Source: Candidatus Cloacimonetes bacterium HGW-Cloacimonetes-3
GTDB lineage: Bacteria; Cloacimonadota; Cloacimonadia; Cloacimonadales; Cloacimonadaceae
DNA: 64,000 bases
Assembly: GCA_002840645.1 (NCBI GenBank)
Contig: PHBO01000002.1
Location: 1-64,000, forward strand
Direction of reading: 5' to 3'
Below, in pieces: positions 6,122 to 16,756 of the stretch. Position 1 is the stretch's first letter; each line of letters opens with the position of its first letter. The notes under the pieces were generated by a model, which ran no database searches, was not told where the DNA came from, and worked only from the letters and a program-made list of their open reading frames with translations. Made by a program: the position numbers and the translations under genes.

Positions 6122-7204
6122 CTACTTCTGCAGAATTACTTTTCGTGTAGCTTGGCTGTTTCCACTACGCACTTTGATGAAATAAATGCCGTTCACACAG
6201 TACCTGCCATAATTATCTCTTCCATCCCACGCAATGGATGTAGCGGATTCTGCTGTCAACTTGCGTATCTTTCTGCCTTTGATATCAAACACGGTAGCTG
6301 TCAGTGTCCCAGGTACCTTGGCAGCAAAATTTAGAGATGTGCAGTTTGCAAAAGGATTTGGGAAAGCCTGAGAGAGCTTCAAAGCTGCCGAGTTATTTAG
6401 CTCGTCATCTATGCTGACGGAATCCATACTGAAGTTCAATGTGTATGTGTTAGCTGCTGTGATTTCTACATTAGTAACTTCTTGGGTGATGTATCCATCC
6501 ACAATGCAGGACACATTCCAAAGCCCCGGTATCAGGCTTAGGCTATAGCTGCCGTTTTCAGCACTGAAAACACTGGAGCTGCCTGCCATAATCACTGCGC
6601 CGGAGATAGGCGTTCCACCCATGGAGGTAACTGTCCCTGTTAGCGTGCCATTTACAATCACAGGTGTCCATGTTAAGCTCATATTCGTGAAGTAAGATTC
6701 ATTGGGAATGGTGAGGTTCACCGGAGCACTGCCCTTAGTGAAGGTAACCTGCTTGAATTTACCCATGTTACCACTACTGGCATTGTGTTCTGTGAATTCG
6801 ATATTAACTTTATAATCTCCATCGGGAGCATCAATGCCCTGGTAGTTCTTCCCATTCCATGTAATATTATGAAGTTGATGGTTTGGCAGTGAAGCTGAGG
6901 TAATCGCTCCGGTGGTGTTCTGTCCAGAACTGGCGATCCAACGGATAAGAGTGTACTGGTAACCACTTGCCCATTTCTTTATAGTTTTCACAAACTGATT
7001 CTGGGAATTAGTGATCCAGATTGCACCGGCATTATCCGGAGCATAGTTTCCATTATACGTTACAGTGCGAACACTATAAGCCATCGAGCCATCTGTGAGG
7101 TCTCGAAATATACCTCCGATAAAGGATTCATCACCATTTAGCAGGTCTCCGAAACACAAGCTTAGGGCAATTAGTAAGGTTAGGTAAACAAGTAATTTCT
7201 TCAT
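6122..7204 (-). CDS. Secreted DUF2271 protein with C-terminal sorting domain
   Basis: 360 aa from the ATG at 7204, which has GGAG seven bases upstream; an in-frame ATG seven codons earlier lacks one. After a signal peptide (MKKLLVYLTLLIALSLCFG), residues ~40-175 match the DUF2271 pattern (APDNAGAIWITNSQNQFVKT, then LIRW and PDGDYKVNIEFTEH), a family of periplasmic proteins of unknown role. Next comes a carboxypeptidase-regulatory-like domain (LTGTVTSMGGTPISGAVIM, ~200-270) and a FlgD-like sorting domain (FPNPF, then WDGRDNYGRYCVNGIYFIKV and TRKVILQK). A possible -24/-12 promoter lies at 7261-7275. Function is unknown; extracellular location is inferred. Confidence 0.85.
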   Translation of the reverse strand: MKKLLVYLTLLIALSLCFGDLLNGDESFIGGIFRDLTDGSMAYSVRTVTYNGNYAPDNAGAIWITNSQNQFVKTIKKWASGYQYTLIRWIASSGQNTTGAITSASLPNHQLHNITWNGKNYQGIDAPDGDYKVNIEFTEHNASSGNMGKFKQVTFTKGSAPVNLTIPNESYFTNMSLTWTPVIVNGTLTGTVTSMGGTPISGAVIMAGSSSVFSAENGSYSLSLIPGLWNVSCIVDGYITQEVTNVEITAANTYTLNFSMDSVSIDDELNNSAALKLSQAFPNPFANCTSLNFAAKVPGTLTATVFDIKGRKIRKLTAESATSIAWDGRDNYGRYCVNGIYFIKVRSGNSQATRKVILQK

Positions 7205-10258: not shown

Positions 10259-11455
10259 CTACAATTGAATACTGGTACCAATTCCGAGGTAGTTCAGGGG
10301 TTTTATATACAAGTCCGAATCATACATTCTATATTGAACATAGCATTCAGAAAAAGGACTTACAAAATAGCTAAGCTTAGCCTGGTAGTTGTTTACAGCA
10401 TTTCCAAGATGCAAGTAGCTAAGGTTTCCGTAAAAATGATTCAGCAATAGCCATTGCCCCTCGCTAAAAAAGGCGGTCTTCTCCCTTTCAAGGCTGTGTT
10501 TCATGCCTGCACTAAAGAAGGAAGCCTGGGCAACATCATAAGGGAAATGGTACTGAAGATGGCAGCGGATTTGGTTGGATAGTAAATATACTTCGCTCAG
10601 CTTATCATCGGAGCAGCTATTGTTTATCAGGCTGATAAAGCCGTTTACCTGCATGCCTAAGCTCTGTTGATACCTTAGAGTGGTTTGGTACATGTTTCTC
10701 GTGAAATCCGGTAAGCTATCTCCATTGCGGTTAACCCAACTGAAGCTGCCTGCAAATTTGCCGGATGGTATCGGTTGAAGCTCCACATCGGCACCCAAAG
10801 TAGTTGAATTCATGTCATATACTTCGGATGCAGTAAAGTTCGCTTGCTTAACATCCGTGCTGCCGTTTATGCTAAGGTACGGGTACACCTGGTAAGAAAG
10901 CTGCATGCCGTAATAAAGATCATCAAATCCTCGTTCAGGCATCTCGGTGGCATCCATTTCGAAAGTGTCATTATTCCACACGAATTCAGTTGGTGTAGTT
11001 TGTAAATGCTTACCTATTCCATAGGCTGCCACAGAAAGTCCGCCAAAGTTTCCACTAATGTCCATCTGGGCTTGATGCTGAGCCTTGCGGTCAAACTCTA
11101 TCTGATTGTTCCAACTTGGATAAAGCGGTAGTCGTTCCGGGCTGCCGAACAGCAAATTGCGGTATCCGGCACCTATGTTCCAGTGTTTTCGCGTGTATTC
11201 CAGTCCCACGAAATTATGCATCCATTTCTTCTGCGGGAATTCACCCAGTTCTCTATCGGCAGCCTCAAGTTTAGAATTAACAAATAGATGCAAATTGGGC
11301 ACTAAGCTAAGCTTTGCATCCAGTCTTGTCTGGTTTAGTGAGGTTGCTTTTTCGTTACCGGAGACCGTATAGAATCCGCTCTGAATCTGGATTTCAGCAG
11401 CAAGACCAATGCCACAAAGCAGCAACAGGATTAATAGATAGCACTGTTTGGACAT
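10259..11455 (-). CDS. Outer-membrane beta-barrel protein of unknown function
   Basis: 398 aa from the ATG at 11455. A signal peptide (KQCYLLILLLLCGIGLAA) precedes a long series of amphipathic beta strands with aromatic ends, as in porin-like barrels; it ends YLGIGTSIQL. I do not recognise a named family. It is the last gene of a tight operon after lemA and two membrane-bound ferredoxins, overlapping the second ferredoxin by 25 bases, so a shared function with them is likely. Downstream is a 9-bp inverted repeat (10199-10238) with no T-run. Confidence 0.72.
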   Translation of the reverse strand: MSKQCYLLILLLLCGIGLAAEIQIQSGFYTVSGNEKATSLNQTRLDAKLSLVPNLHLFVNSKLEAADRELGEFPQKKWMHNFVGLEYTRKHWNIGAGYRNLLFGSPERLPLYPSWNNQIEFDRKAQHQAQMDISGNFGGLSVAAYGIGKHLQTTPTEFVWNNDTFEMDATEMPERGFDDLYYGMQLSYQVYPYLSINGSTDVKQANFTASEVYDMNSTTLGADVELQPIPSGKFAGSFSWVNRNGDSLPDFTRNMYQTTLRYQQSLGMQVNGFISLINNSCSDDKLSEVYLLSNQIRCHLQYHFPYDVAQASFFSAGMKHSLEREKTAFFSEGQWLLLNHFYGNLSYLHLGNAVNNYQAKLSYFVSPFSECYVQYRMYDSDLYIKPLNYLGIGTSIQL

Positions 11456-11697
11456 ACCGCCACACACATTGCACACTTTGTGCATTTAGTTTGGTCTATA
11501 ACTGCTTTGCCCTGCGTATTATAGTAAATCGCATCATTAGGGCAAACCCTGATACACTCTCCACATCCATTGCAAGAGCTGTGGTCAACTTCGTAGTAAA
11601 GCATAGTTGCACCTGTTGTTAAAGGTGCGCGTTTGCATGCAAACCCTAATAAGATTATCAGCAGGGTAATGATGATCAGGATGTATGAAGCTTTCAT
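11431..11697 (-). CDS. Lipoprotein-type 2[4Fe-4S] ferredoxin
   Basis: 88 aa. The N-terminus is a lipoprotein-like signal (ASYILIIITLLIILLGFAC), with the lipobox cysteine at about residue 21. Two full [4Fe-4S] motifs follow, CNGCGECIRVCP and CTKCAMCVAVCP. The ATG at 11697 overlaps the stop of the upstream ferredoxin gene as ATGA. Anchored outside the inner membrane, it would carry electrons in the periplasm; that placement is inferred from the signal. A longer in-frame reading starting at 11844 is a shadow of the preceding gene. Confidence 0.85.
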   Translation of the reverse strand: MKASYILIIITLLIILLGFACKRAPLTTGATMLYYEVDHSSCNGCGECIRVCPNDAIYYNTQGKAVIDQTKCTKCAMCVAVCPNSAIY

Positions 11698-11936
11698 CTT
11701 GCTGTTTTTATAGCCCGATATGTGCAGGTTCGAACGCAAATCTTGCAATCGATACATAGTTCCGGATCGATGCTTGCCTTTGCTCCATGGATGCTGATTG
11801 CTCCTGTGGGGCATTGGCTTATGCAATCCCCACATCCCACACATAAATTACGTTGAACTACAGGTTTATCCAGTATTATGGCAGCCAAAGTCATAACGGA
11901 TAAGGCTATCAAAATACAGATTAGGAGGGTCTTCAT
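11694..11936 (-). CDS. Membrane-anchored 2[4Fe-4S] ferredoxin
   Basis: 80 aa. A single N-terminal hydrophobic segment (LLICILIALSVMTLAAIIL) is followed at once by two [4Fe-4S] binding motifs, CVGCGDCISQCP and CIDCKICVRTC. Its ATG directly follows the lemA stop codon (TAAATG). A paralogue with a lipobox follows in the same operon. The segment could be an uncleaved anchor or a signal peptide; no lipobox cysteine is present. Confidence 0.85.
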   Translation of the reverse strand: MKTLLICILIALSVMTLAAIILDKPVVQRNLCVGCGDCISQCPTGAISIHGAKASIDPELCIDCKICVRTCTYRAIKTAR

Positions 11937-12536
11937 TTATTCGAATTCTACCTTGGGAGCATTTTGAGCAGCAGTATCGGCTTGGAAGAATTGGAAAGCT
12001 TTCACATTGATGAAGTTGGCTATAACGTTGTTTGGGAAGGTAACGATTAGCTGATTGAAAAGCTTGGCACTATCGTTATAACGCATTCTTTCGGTTCTGA
12101 TGCGGTTTTCTATCCCTTCTAACTGCGCCTGAAACTGCAAGAAGTTTTGATTTGATTTTAGTTCGGGATAGCGTTCCACCACAACCATCAAACGTGATAA
12201 TGCACTACTAAGTCCAGCCTGGTTTGCCTGGAAGTTTTGGAAAGCCTGTGGATCGGTTAAAGCTTCGGGAGGAAGGTTCACGCTGCCGCCCATTTTGGCA
12301 CGGGCTTCGGTTACCTGGGTTAGAGTTGATTTTTCGAAGTTAGCTGCACCCTGCACGGTTTGAACAAGATTTGGCACTAAATCGAAACGAGTTTGATATA
12401 CATTCTGAACCTGTGCCCAAGCGTTTTCTACGCTAACTTTTTCTTTCTGAATTGTGTTGTATCGTCCTATAAACCATCCTGCTGCCATAATAACAAGCAG
12501 AACTACAACGAGTAAGGCGATCAGTCCTTTTTTCAT
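11937..12536 (-). CDS. lemA: LemA family protein
   Basis: 199 aa, normal LemA length. One N-terminal membrane helix (GLIALLVVVLLVIMAAGWFIG) and a four-helix-bundle domain with the family signatures ENAWAQVQNVYQTRFDLVPNLV split here as ENAWAQVQNVY and RFDLVPNLV, YPELKSNQNFLQFQAQLEG, and FNQLIVTFP with ANFINVKAFQFF. The ATG at 12536 has GGGAG at a good distance. LemA proteins are membrane proteins of poorly known function, often next to TPM-domain proteins. Here the partners are two ferredoxins and a beta-barrel protein, which is unusual. Confidence 0.92.
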   Translation of the reverse strand: MKKGLIALLVVVLLVIMAAGWFIGRYNTIQKEKVSVENAWAQVQNVYQTRFDLVPNLVQTVQGAANFEKSTLTQVTEARAKMGGSVNLPPEALTDPQAFQNFQANQAGLSSALSRLMVVVERYPELKSNQNFLQFQAQLEGIENRIRTERMRYNDSAKLFNQLIVTFPNNVIANFINVKAFQFFQADTAAQNAPKVEFE

Positions 12537-13025: not shown

Positions 13026-14318
13026 CTATGGAGTTTTAGATAGCTTTAACAGAGGCACATCCAGCCAGTATCTGCCAACTGGTTTGCTTTGGATGATTAT
13101 TGTGGGGGAGTTGGACTTGTTATTTACAACTTTTGTACGGGGGGAAACATACAGGGTATCCGAAAACAACGCAGGCAGGCTAAACAGCAGTTCGCCCTTG
13201 CCGATGCTGAGGTGAGTTTGCAGTACTCTAAGTGTATCTACAGAAACGTTTGCCTCACAAACAAGCTCTGTAAAGAAGCCCTGCTGTTGTTGGGTAAGAG
13301 TAAAACCTTTGTTATTGTAACTATGTATGCTTTTCAGCTTACTTCCGGGAAAGCCAAAGCCGTTCGCCCGGTAATCGAGGAGGGAACTATCTCTAAGGCT
13401 AATGCGCACTACCGCATTACTAAAATTCAATTCCAGGCTTTGGTTGGTTCCATTTCCCAGTTGGCTACTAATCTTATACTCCTGATTGGCAGAATAGGGA
13501 GTGGCAAGCATCACACCAATAGTTATCAATAGTCCTAAAAGAGCTAACAATAGCTTTTGCAAGGGCTTTAACTTGCGCTGCATTGATTCATCAGAAGGTA
13601 CAAAGAACAGGTTCCGGTGCAAAGCTAATGCCCTGAAAAGCAGGAATGAACTTAGATATACCAGTGTTCCAGCCCAGAGGACATCACTGGCAAAGTGCCC
13701 TCCCTGACCCATGCGAATCCAGCCGATTATCAAACCCCAAACCAAGGCGGCAACAAGAGTAAGATTGGCAAGATTAGCTCTGTGTTTGCGGAGCACAAAA
13801 GCCAGCGCAAAAAAGTAGAATCCCATGGTAGCATGTCCACAGGGAAAGGATTTGCCGGGACTGGTGGCATCAACTGTCAACAGAGCTTCGTATGCGTGTT
13901 CGCCACCATACTGCACAAGCTCTCTTGGGCGCGGTCTGCCCCAGTTGTCCTTTAAAAGGCTATTCACCAGAATGCCGGGACCCACAACCATCGCTAACAC
14001 AAGGAAAATAAATATCTTACGGTGGGGTAGAAAGCGTGGCTTGCTATAACACAGTACGAACCCCACCAATGCACCAAGGCTTAGTATCAGGGCGGGGATA
14101 TTGCTGTAATGGTAGATAAACAAGGCAAGGGGAGAGCTGTTAAACGCCCATCCGCTAATGGGATCGTAATAACGGCTTTGGAGGGTTAGATCGAGGTTTG
14201 TAAGGCGGAATATAACTGTTCCGATAGTCAGTATCAACATCGGCAGGATAAAATCCGGAGATAAAAGGAAATGACGGCTTTTGGGAGCCGTCATTTCTGT
14301 ATTACTGGGTCTTATCAT
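13026..14318 (-). CDS. PAP2-family membrane phosphatase with extra C-terminal domain
   Basis: 430 aa. The first ~245 residues are a six-helix PAP2 (type 2 phosphatidic acid phosphatase) domain with the three-part signature K-x6-RPR (KDNWGRPRPRE), PCGHATMGF and GWIRMGQGGHFASDV. Substrates of this family include undecaprenyl pyrophosphate and phosphatidylglycerophosphate; the substrate here is open. Residues ~265-430 follow another membrane segment and look like a beta-rich extracytoplasmic domain of unknown role. The ATG at 14318 overlaps the rpsA stop (TAATG). A strong hairpin lies over codons ~8-17; a later start (for example 14240) cannot be excluded. Confidence 0.85.
   Translation of the reverse strand: MIRPSNTEMTAPKSRHFLLSPDFILPMLILTIGTVIFRLTNLDLTLQSRYYDPISGWAFNSSPLALFIYHYSNIPALILSLGALVGFVLCYSKPRFLPHRKIFIFLVLAMVVGPGILVNSLLKDNWGRPRPRELVQYGGEHAYEALLTVDATSPGKSFPCGHATMGFYFFALAFVLRKHRANLANLTLVAALVWGLIIGWIRMGQGGHFASDVLWAGTLVYLSSFLLFRALALHRNLFFVPSDESMQRKLKPLQKLLLALLGLLITIGVMLATPYSANQEYKISSQLGNGTNQSLELNFSNAVVRISLRDSSLLDYRANGFGFPGSKLKSIHSYNNKGFTLTQQQQGFFTELVCEANVSVDTLRVLQTHLSIGKGELLFSLPALFSDTLYVSPRTKVVNNKSNSPTIIIQSKPVGRYWLDVPLLKLSKTP
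14262..14296 (-). terminator. Terminator-like hairpin inside the 5' end of the PAP2 gene
   Basis: Perfect 11-bp stem AAATGACGGCT/AGCCGTCATTT with a six-base loop. Read leftward it is followed by TTCCTTTTAT. It sits 22 bases after the rpsA stop codon but within the first 17 codons of the overlapping PAP2 frame. Confidence 0.65.
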
Positions 14319-16756
14319 TATTCGGGTTTTGGTTCTTCTGTTTCTTCAGGTACAGGTATTTCTTCAATTTCTACTTCTTCAGCTTCTTCAGCTTCAGGAG
14401 CGGGTACTTCTTCTACCTGTATTACGGGAGTCTCCTCAACTGCGGGAATCTCTTCCACAACGGGAGTCTCCTCAACTGCGGGAATCTCTTCCGCAACCGG
14501 GGTTTCTTCCACTACGGGTGCTTCCTCAGCAACTGGAATCTCTTCCGCAACCGGGGTTTCCTCCACTACGGGTGCTTCCTCAGCAACTGGAATCTCTTCC
14601 ATTACCGGGGTTTCTTCCACTACAGGCATTTCAGTGGCAGGTTCCGTATCTTCAACAGCAGCTTCAGATTCAGCAGCAGCTGCGGCAGCGGCTTCAGCGT
14701 CACTCTCTTCTTTGCTCTCTGCCAGCTGTCTGTCGCGGGCTTCTTTCTCTTGTTTCTTTTTCTGTTGCTTAGCTGCCTTTTCGCGCATGAACTGCTCGTG
14801 GATAGCGATGTATTCTTCCTGCAATCTGGGATCGCGAGAGAAGAAGAAAGCCTTCACGGAAAGTATCAGGCGGCGGTTTTCCATATCCAGTTCGATTACT
14901 TTTAAGGGTAATTCTTCACCCACATGGAATGCATCTTCGCTATGCTCAAGTTTTGGAAGCGCAAGATGAGAGATAGGAATAAATCCTTCCACAACGTCAT
15001 TACCCATGGGAACATCAACCAACAAGCCTTTGGGGATGAGCTTACTAATCTTACCCTTAACTTCAGTATTGACAGGTAAAACAGTGCTAAGGCTTTCCCA
15101 AGGATCGGGAACAAGCTGTTTCACACCCAGTGCTATGCGGTGCTGTGCACGGTCTATGGATAGGATTATGGCTTCTACATCCTGATTTTTGCGATACACT
15201 TCTCTGGGATGGTAGATGCGCTTTGTCCAGCTGATGTCGGAAATATGCACCAAACCATCGATACCTTCCTCGATCTCCACAAAAGCACCAAAAGCTGTGA
15301 GGCTTTTAACTTTGCGGGTAAGGACTGTGCCCATGGGGTAGCGATCTTCAATAGTAAGCCAGGGATTGGCATCCATTTGTTTCATACCCAGGGAGATGCG
15401 TTTGTTTTCTTTATCCAGTTCAAGGACGATAGCACTTATAGTATCGCCAACTTTAAGTATCTTGCGGGCATCGGCTATCTTCTTAGTCCAGCTCATTTCA
15501 GAGATGTGAACAAGACCTTCCACGCCGGGTTCGATCTCCACAAAGGCACCAAAAGACTTCACGCTTACCACCTTACCGGTGATGCGGGTGCCTTCGGGAT
15601 TCTTTAACTCGATGGTTTCCCATGGATGAGGAACAAGTTGCTTCAAACCGAGGGATATCTTATTGGTTTCGGGATCGAAGTTGATAACCTTAACCTTAAC
15701 TTTATCACCAATTTGCAGCATTTCGGAAGGGTGGGATATCTTACCCCAACTCATGTCGGTAAGATGGAGTAATCCATCGATACCGCCAAGGTCTATAAAG
15801 GCACCATACTGAGTTATATTCTTCACTTCACCGTCTAATTCGGAATCTATCTCAAGCTTTTCAAGAAGCTCTGCGCGTTTAACCGCAGCTTCTTCTTCCA
15901 ATACTTGACGACGGGAGAGGATGATGTTGCGATGTTCTTCATCAACGTTAACTACCTTAAAAGCAAGTTCCTTGCCGATGAATTGATCAAGATTCGGAAT
16001 TGGTTTAAGGGACATCTGTGAGCCGGGTAAAAAGCCTTCGATTCCCAGAATATCCACTATCATACCACCTTTCACACGACGGCGTATCACACCAGAAATG
16101 TTTGTGCCATCAGCAAAGGTATTCTTGATACGTTCGATATTGAGGTTGTAATCTGCTTTCTTTTTGGATAGCAGTAACTTGCCTTCGCCATTCTCGATCT
16201 CGTTGATAAATACCTTCACTACGGTATTGCGTTCAGGCACACCGCTGTAAGCAAATTCGGAAATGGGAATAACGCCTTCGGATTTGAAGCCGATATCCAC
16301 ACGCACTTCCTTGTCGGAAATATCCACGATCGTCCCTTCGATAATCTCACCCTTTTTGAAGTTAGAGAACGATTCTTCATACATAGACAGCATGGCTTCG
16401 TGCTCTTTTTCATCCTGGGAAAGCTCTTTCTTGGGGGCTTCCGGTTTGGGAATCACTACAGGCTCTGCAACAACTGGTTCTTCAATTACTGGTGCAGGTT
16501 CGTCGGTGATAACGGGTTCTTCCTCGGGGGGAGTTTCTTCGGGTTCTGGAATCACTGTTTCAGTTTCTAAAACAGGAGTTTCCTCGATACTTTCTACTTC
16601 ATGTTCGGTAGCGGCAATTGAAGGCTCAACGGGAGTTTCATCACCTTCAACTGTTGATTTTGACGTCGCGTCGGCTCCGCTCTCCAGACCGGTTTCCACT
16701 ACTGGCTCCGTTTCCTTAACTTCAGGCTCGACAGTGTTTTGATCATGGTTTAACAT
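14318..16756 (-). CDS. rpsA: Ribosomal protein S1 with acidic repeat extensions
   Basis: 812 aa; typical S1 is about 550-570. Residues ~130-660 carry six S1 (OB-fold) RNA-binding domains, seen as repeated G-x-V followed by hallmark segments such as [42 protein letters not shown] (partly quoted) and [10 protein letters not shown]. Both ends are extended: an N-terminal ~125-residue acidic P/E/V/T-rich region, and a C-terminal ~130 residues of (A/V)EE(T/I/A)PV repeats after an alanine run. S1 recruits mRNA to the 30S subunit. AAGGAGG precedes the ATG, which overlaps the stop of cmk-ispH. The gene order cmk/ispH-rpsA is also found in other bacteria. Confidence 0.93.
14340..14640. repeat. Degenerate tandem repeats encoding the acidic S1 tail
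   Basis: DNA repeats in units of 18 bases and multiples; the block containing GCAACTGGAATCTCTTCC recurs about 72 bases apart. It encodes (A/V)EE(T/I/A)PV repeats, so copy number could vary between strains by slippage. Confidence 0.75.

Follow-up and report, generated by a model that had tools for sequence, protein, structure and literature searches.

Exported ferredoxins encoded with an outer-membrane barrel in Cloacimonadota: a candidate cytochrome-free electron conduit

To our knowledge, the outer-membrane electron conduits familiar so far all use multihaem cytochromes. The window analyzed here, a stretch of 64,000 nucleotides from Candidatus Cloacimonetes bacterium HGW-Cloacimonetes-3, encodes two very small ferredoxins next to a predicted outer-membrane β-barrel and thereby raises the question of whether iron–sulfur proteins could carry electrons across the cell envelope instead. 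Cloacimonadota are common in anaerobic digesters, and published proposals that they transfer electrons directly to other species have so far invoked pili (PMC7382037, PMC13082233). A sequence-only reading of the locus had described four genes, namely lemA, a ferredoxin with an N-terminal membrane or signal segment (Fd1), a ferredoxin with a lipobox (Fd2), and a barrel gene, coupled by abutting or overlapping start and stop signals. Pfam matches, gene coordinates, and a structure model bear out this description (Table 1). The ATG of Fd1 directly follows the TAA of lemA with a spacer of 0, the ATG of Fd2 overlaps the TGA of Fd1 as ATGA, and the ATG of the barrel gene lies 25 bp within the 3′ end of Fd2 in a different frame. 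Both ferredoxins contain two complete CxxCxxCxxxC motifs along with Fer4 matches, the sequence signature of a 2[4Fe-4S] bacterial ferredoxin, and are predicted to bind two clusters each. We find that the ferredoxins and the barrel, but not lemA, belong to a real and conserved system that is apparently undescribed, and we consider a role as an electron conduit to have about an even chance of being correct.

Table 1. Features of the window discussed in the text
Feature	Position	Strand	Description
lemA	11937-12536	minus	199 aa; Pfam LemA 5.7e-54; judged outside the system
Fd1	11694-11936	minus	80-aa 2[4Fe-4S] ferredoxin, N-terminal hydrophobic signal/anchor segment
Fd2	11431-11697	minus	88-aa 2[4Fe-4S] ferredoxin, predicted lipoprotein (LLGFAC followed by K)
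Barrel gene	10259-11455	minus	398-aa predicted outer-membrane β-barrel, ~20 strands, without plug or known family
DUF2271 protein	6122-7204	minus	T9SS C-terminal sorting domain; recurrent cassette neighbor

The Fd1–Fd2–barrel cassette and its lemA neighbor

A search for Fd1, the barrel, and LemA in genomes related to that of the window showed that relatives of Fd1 and of the barrel are co-located. Using profiles built here, we then scanned the neighborhoods of 21 relatives and of 35 loci from named genomes (partly the same genomes), most of the genomes compared being metagenome bins. The Fd1–Fd2–barrel tandem lies on one strand in nearly every Cloacimonadota locus that is not truncated by a contig end, and the order recurs at about three dozen loci, including loci of Fibrobacterota (L098), Chitinivibrionales (L100), and the unclassified bacterium bin_47 (L099), all three of which share the order ferredoxin, lipoprotein, Fd1, lipoprotein ferredoxin, barrel-sized ORF, and DsbD_2. 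The exceptions are G007, with a truncated barrel; G038, whose contig starts at Fd2 and has the genes in a rearranged order; and the divergent cluster L081. Judged by gene order, Fd1–Fd2–barrel is a real conserved cassette and more than a chance arrangement. The barrel profile matches 37 of 125 genomes in the phylum and 20 of 50 genera, a count that leaves out a divergent barrel subgroup. We also observe that the G007 cassette (L038:4368-5793), in which Fd2 reads into the truncated barrel, looks decayed or misassembled and that a contig labeled Armatimonadota (L080) has a cluster that closely resembles the Cloacimonadota ones, probably through a binning or naming error.

Outside the genus of the window, the cassette is commonly part of a wider cluster that comprises a NapH-like membrane protein, two further proteins that we call A and B, a ferredoxin with a type IX secretion system (T9SS) tail in three genomes, Fd1, Fd2, the barrel, and a DsbD_2 protein. 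Which of these lie upstream of the cassette depends on the lineage (the NapH-like protein, A, B, and, in G037, G044, and G056, the T9SS-tailed ferredoxin), and the DsbD_2 gene (PF13386) follows the barrel on its 3′ side in most lineages. The genus of the window lacks the DsbD_2 protein, and the genes for B and the T9SS ferredoxin are not at its cassette locus.

The lemA gene behaves differently. It abuts Fd1 only in the genus of the window, where it adjoins the cassette in the congeners G004, G005, and G007 as well. In two other members of the genus (G002 and G008) and in one genome from another genus (G010), lemA is followed by mscS with no cassette between them. In G015 and G016, it occupies a separate rpsA–PAP2–lemA site with the cassette located elsewhere, and outside the genus of the window, it is found at its own rpsA–PAP2–lemA site without ferredoxins. 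A lemA remnant persists beside an intact cassette in G017, from a neighboring genus. Because the adjacency is limited to one genus and lemA has decayed independently in G017, we regard it as a positional neighbor only; its distribution and the cassette-free sites in G002, G008, and G010 rule it out as a member of the unit. The four-gene order that had been put forward for a conservation check thus survives in its Fd1–Fd2–barrel core, which is conserved elsewhere, and loses lemA. Elsewhere in the window (14318-16756), a ribosomal protein S1-like protein carries long low-complexity acidic repeats of the EETPV type at its ends.

Export signals and the barrel model

The N-terminal hydrophobic segment of Fd1 is present in 39 of 41 Fd1-like sequences, and the two without it are ordinary soluble ferredoxins caught by the profile, which serve as controls. 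Among 35 Fd2-class sequences, 27 have a strict lipobox, with forms such as LSGC, LSAC, LIAC, and VVAC among the orthologs, and six more have Y-[FVI]-G-C; of the remaining two, one is truncated where its contig stops and the other is a different protein. In the window, the hydrophobic stretch of Fd2 ends in LLIILLGFAC followed by K, a lipobox that is weak alone, with Gly at −3. Assignment of Fd2 as a lipoprotein is therefore well founded at the level of the family and weak for the window protein (GFAC). Net charge is biased toward N-in, C-out in most orthologs and is neutral in the window Fd1 (N +1, C +1). Tat export is disfavored, as an RR motif occurs in very few of the ferredoxin sequences, and export looks Sec-type instead. 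Since [4Fe-4S] proteins normally fold before export, a Sec-type route would require that the ferredoxin clusters be assembled outside the cytoplasm. The lipoboxes and the charge bias, together with the lipobox and T9SS signals on sister ferredoxins described below, point to a periplasmic location for Fd1 and Fd2. In many Fd2 orthologs outside the family of the window, Asp follows the lipobox Cys, a residue that signals inner-membrane retention in Escherichia coli by a rule that may differ in Cloacimonadota. A separate observation concerns the genus that holds G012 (L034, L037, and L041), in which the second cluster motif of Fd2 reads CxxDxxC with Asp in place of the second Cys; an Asp ligand is known from redox-variant ferredoxins.

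The AlphaFold model of the barrel protein (pLDDT 89.7, pTM 0.76) consists of a signal helix followed by the β strands, and it contains no plug domain. Its Foldseek neighbors include TonB-receptor barrels and, with E 2.8e-7, MtrB from the Mtr complex (6r2q_B), a likeness that among barrels is weak evidence given TM values of 0.3–0.6 and identities of ~6–12%. No known family could be assigned to it: there was no Pfam or NCBIfam family match, a profile search returned no relative among PDB sequences, and seven barrel or barrel-sized proteins had no match to DUF3570 (PF12094) up to E 10. Taking the model at face value, and by analogy with MtrA, which fills MtrB, we would expect the open pore to be filled or gated.

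Further exported redox proteins

Protein A combines a signal, an OB-like domain, and a Fer4 domain and is a predicted exported ferredoxin. Its structure model is fairly confident for the N-terminal domain, for which the best PDB neighbors look OB-type without reaching significance, and poor for the ferredoxin part. In the window genome (G000), A lies on contig C4, and it is unlinked to the cassette throughout the genus, where its presence nonetheless coincides exactly with that of the cassette (four of nine congeners). Across 61 genomes, 21 have both, three have the cassette only, four have A only, and 33 have neither (Fisher p 1.5e-9, with the caveat that related genomes are not independent). 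This shared presence without linkage is the best evidence that A and the cassette work together. On contig C4 (L141:5580-7794), A sits behind genes for a LolA-like lipoprotein chaperone and a sugar-phosphate nucleotidyltransferase-like protein, a neighborhood conserved in several genera.

Two other cluster ferredoxins also carry export signals. B is a large protein with a lipobox, predicted to be a lipoprotein, that has Fer4 domains at both ends of a series of fn3 repeats. In the clusters of G037, G044, and G056, a Fer4 protein ends in a Por_Secre_tail/TIGR04183 domain; the G044 protein scores 41.6 bits against a cut-off of 23, and the other two have the same architecture by profile. The window genome, the one genome checked for it, encodes SprA of the T9SS.

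The proposed electron input is a membrane Fe-S protein that matches both TIGR02163 and NosR models. With 66.6 bits against a NapH cut-off of 213, it is, on its profile scores, a relative of NapH rather than NapH itself. An inventory of Fer4 proteins in the window genome adds two exported ferredoxins to those of the cassette: A and, on contig C19, a double ferredoxin that adjoins the NapH-like gene. Directly upstream of this pair (L060:7655-11560) lie korA and korB, which encode a 2-oxoacid:acceptor oxidoreductase, and the korA–korB–napH–ferredoxin order is found in G015, G016, and G017 as well. This gene order suggests that the oxidation of 2-oxoacids is coupled directly to exported ferredoxins; the window genome has separate Rnf-like genes. 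Invariant C23 and C128 form a CxP/CP cysteine pair in the DsbD_2 protein, which may supply reductant for the maturation of the exported ferredoxins.

DUF2271 proteins are known flavinylation substrates, and the flavinylation motif is [ST]GA[ST] (PMC8238504). Orthologs of the window's DUF2271 protein adjoin the cassette in G009, G017, G022, and G027 and lie inside the cluster in G048, which makes this protein a possible surface partner of the cassette. In all eight aligned homologs, however, GA[IV]T replaces the canonical motif, within an invariant GA[IV]T[SG]AS, and flavinylation of the neighboring DUF2271 protein is not supported by this measure. In bin_47 (L099:2225-6108), D[AV][VI]SSA[ST] motifs are common to three proteins of the cluster, namely the barrel, a lipoprotein, and a secreted protein, and look like an ApbE flavinylation motif that has S in place of G.

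A proposed ferredoxin conduit, its rivals, and known systems

We propose, with a probability of roughly one half, that Fd1, Fd2, and the barrel are the central part of an electron conduit through the cell envelope that is built on ferredoxins. The proposal is supported by the gene order shared across phyla; by the export signals of the Fd1 and Fd2 families; by the co-occurrence of A with the cassette; by the further ferredoxins that are exported, lipid-anchored, or T9SS-tailed; by the NapH-like protein; by the unplugged barrel; and by the absence of cytochrome c assembly genes. Cytochrom_C_asm was found in 0 of 61 genomes, with controls above the cut-off in eight of 14, and a haem conduit is therefore unlikely. 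An electron-carrying role with an outward direction is suggested by the carrier family, the surface-secretion tails on some of its members, SprA, and the empty lumen of the modeled barrel. Weighing against the proposal are the Sec-type export, the Asp after the Fd2 lipobox Cys, the patchy distribution of the cassette, the weak Foldseek likeness, and, in the genus of the window, the lack of DsbD_2 and the absence of B and the T9SS ferredoxin from the locus. The periplasmic path toward the outer membrane envisaged in the sequence-only reading gains strength from the gene order, the sister ferredoxins, the NapH-like protein, the absence of cytochrome c assembly genes, and the unplugged barrel, with the location itself read from the export signals.

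A fuller version of the conduit, which we hold more tentatively and at somewhat less than even odds, is a cytochrome-free route in which 2[4Fe-4S] ferredoxins that mature outside the cytoplasm, some periplasmic, some lipid-anchored, and some sorted to the surface, would pass electrons through or beneath the large barrel and so provide the missing direct interspecies or extracellular route in Cloacimonadota and their Fibrobacter-line relatives. In the conduit as first proposed above, electrons would originate in the cytoplasm, from a 2-oxoacid:ferredoxin oxidoreductase or from quinol, and would be passed by the NapH-like membrane protein to A-type exported ferredoxins. From A, they would reach Fd1, in the inner membrane or periplasm, and the lipid-anchored Fd2, and a ferredoxin in or under the lumen of the wide barrel would take the role that MtrA has inside MtrB. 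They would then move through or into the barrel to surface proteins, for which lipoprotein B with its fn3 stalk, the T9SS-tailed ferredoxins, and the DUF2271 proteins are candidates, and these may hand the electrons to an external acceptor, to a mineral, or to a syntrophic partner. Where present, DsbD_2 may maintain the cysteines of the exported proteins in the reduced state for cluster insertion. If correct, the conduit would supply a mechanism for the interspecies electron transfer proposed for Cloacimonadota, would allow electroactive microbes to be sought by features other than CxxCH motifs, and would raise the question of how [4Fe-4S] clusters enter Sec-exported proteins; testable protein sets are available in the named genomes. 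In the open-access literature, we found nothing on a ferredoxin or Fe-S conduit, on T9SS ferredoxins, or on electron transfer of such a make-up in Cloacimonadota.

The same components could instead form a redox chain that ends in the periplasm, where the exported ferredoxins would feed a reductase or reduce iron or sulfur compounds and the barrel would serve as a porin for substrate or product. NapH-like proteins often serve periplasmic oxidoreductases (PMC8238504), the invariant cysteine pair of the DsbD_2 protein is compatible with such a chain, and in many orthologs the Asp that follows the lipid Cys of Fd2 would fit an inner-membrane position. We nevertheless judge this reading unlikely, though a serious competitor, as no terminal oxidoreductase recurs in the cluster neighborhoods examined, the T9SS-tailed ferredoxins point outside the cell, and the barrel gene is closely tied to Fd2, adjacent to it and often overlapping. 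A role in handling iron or other metals, with the exported cysteine clusters binding or delivering iron, copper, or Fe-S clusters and the barrel passing metal or ferredoxin-like cargo, seems improbable to us. It draws on the resemblance of the barrel model to TonB receptors and on relatives of DsbD_2 that are known from copper homeostasis. It also has a parallel in FusA, which is described as an outer-membrane barrel receptor that imports plant ferredoxin (PMC5095587). The barrel model has no plug domain, however, no metal transporter or regulator recurs in the clusters examined, and the Fer4 domains retain full ligand sets for 2[4Fe-4S], some orthologs having an Asp ligand as in redox-tuned ferredoxins.

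That Fd1 and Fd2 are anchored in the membrane and face the cytoplasm, in the manner of the ferredoxin domain of RnfB, we consider very improbable: the single N-terminal hydrophobic segment of Fd1, the RnfB-type domains among the PDB matches of Fd2, and the neutral charge bias of the window Fd1 would fit, but the lipoboxes on Fd2 and B, the T9SS tail on a sister ferredoxin, the N-in bias of most orthologs, and the close link to an outer-membrane barrel disfavor it. We give even less credence to the Fe-S envelope sensor offered in the sequence-only reading, here coupled to LemA. The abutting genes in the genus of the window would agree with it, but LemA occurs without the cassette and the cassette without LemA, and no kinase, anti-sigma factor, regulator, or signaling domain recurs in the cluster neighborhoods examined.

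The cassette and its cluster share features with several known systems. Like RnfB/RsxB and other membrane-attached polyferredoxins, the cassette pairs a 2[4Fe-4S] domain with an N-terminal membrane segment, but RnfB faces the cytoplasm, whereas Fd2 is a predicted lipoprotein in a set tied to an outer-membrane barrel. The matches to TIGR02163 and NosR recall NapGH, NosR, and MauMN, in which a membrane protein of this kind has periplasmic ferredoxin partners. In contrast to those systems, the NapH-like score falls below the cut-off, the clusters examined contain no nitrate or N2O reductase, and the partners, which look Sec/Lsp-exported, lead on to a barrel in the outer membrane. The extracytosolic flavinylated systems of Meheust et al. 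(2021) likewise include NapH-like, DsbD–DUF3570, and DUF2271 proteins (PMC8238504). There too, NapH-like or DsbD-family membrane proteins hand electrons to exported carriers, and DUF3570, a domain of ~420 aa, is similar in size to the cassette barrel. The cassette departs from them in that its carriers are exported ferredoxins (the term 4Fe-4S is absent from the main text of PMC8238504), the barrel has no DUF3570 match, and the neighboring DUF2271 proteins carry the altered motif.

The proposed functional parallel lies with the porin–cytochrome conduits MtrCAB of Shewanella, PioAB, and Pcc of Geobacter. As in these systems, a wide outer-membrane barrel shares an operon with small multicenter redox proteins and is linked to a membrane electron input; the unplugged barrel of the AlphaFold model, encoded with its carriers in overlapping genes, follows the MtrCAB pattern, and MtrB is among its structural neighbors. 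MtrB itself has 26 strands, compared with ~20 predicted for the cassette barrel. Unlike the porin–cytochrome conduits, the centers of the cassette are predicted to be [4Fe-4S] ferredoxins rather than haems, the 61 genomes have no cytochrome c assembly genes, and no sequence relation of its barrel or carriers to those systems was found. The system most likely works like a porin–cytochrome conduit without the cytochromes, as a counterpart to that family and not a member of it.
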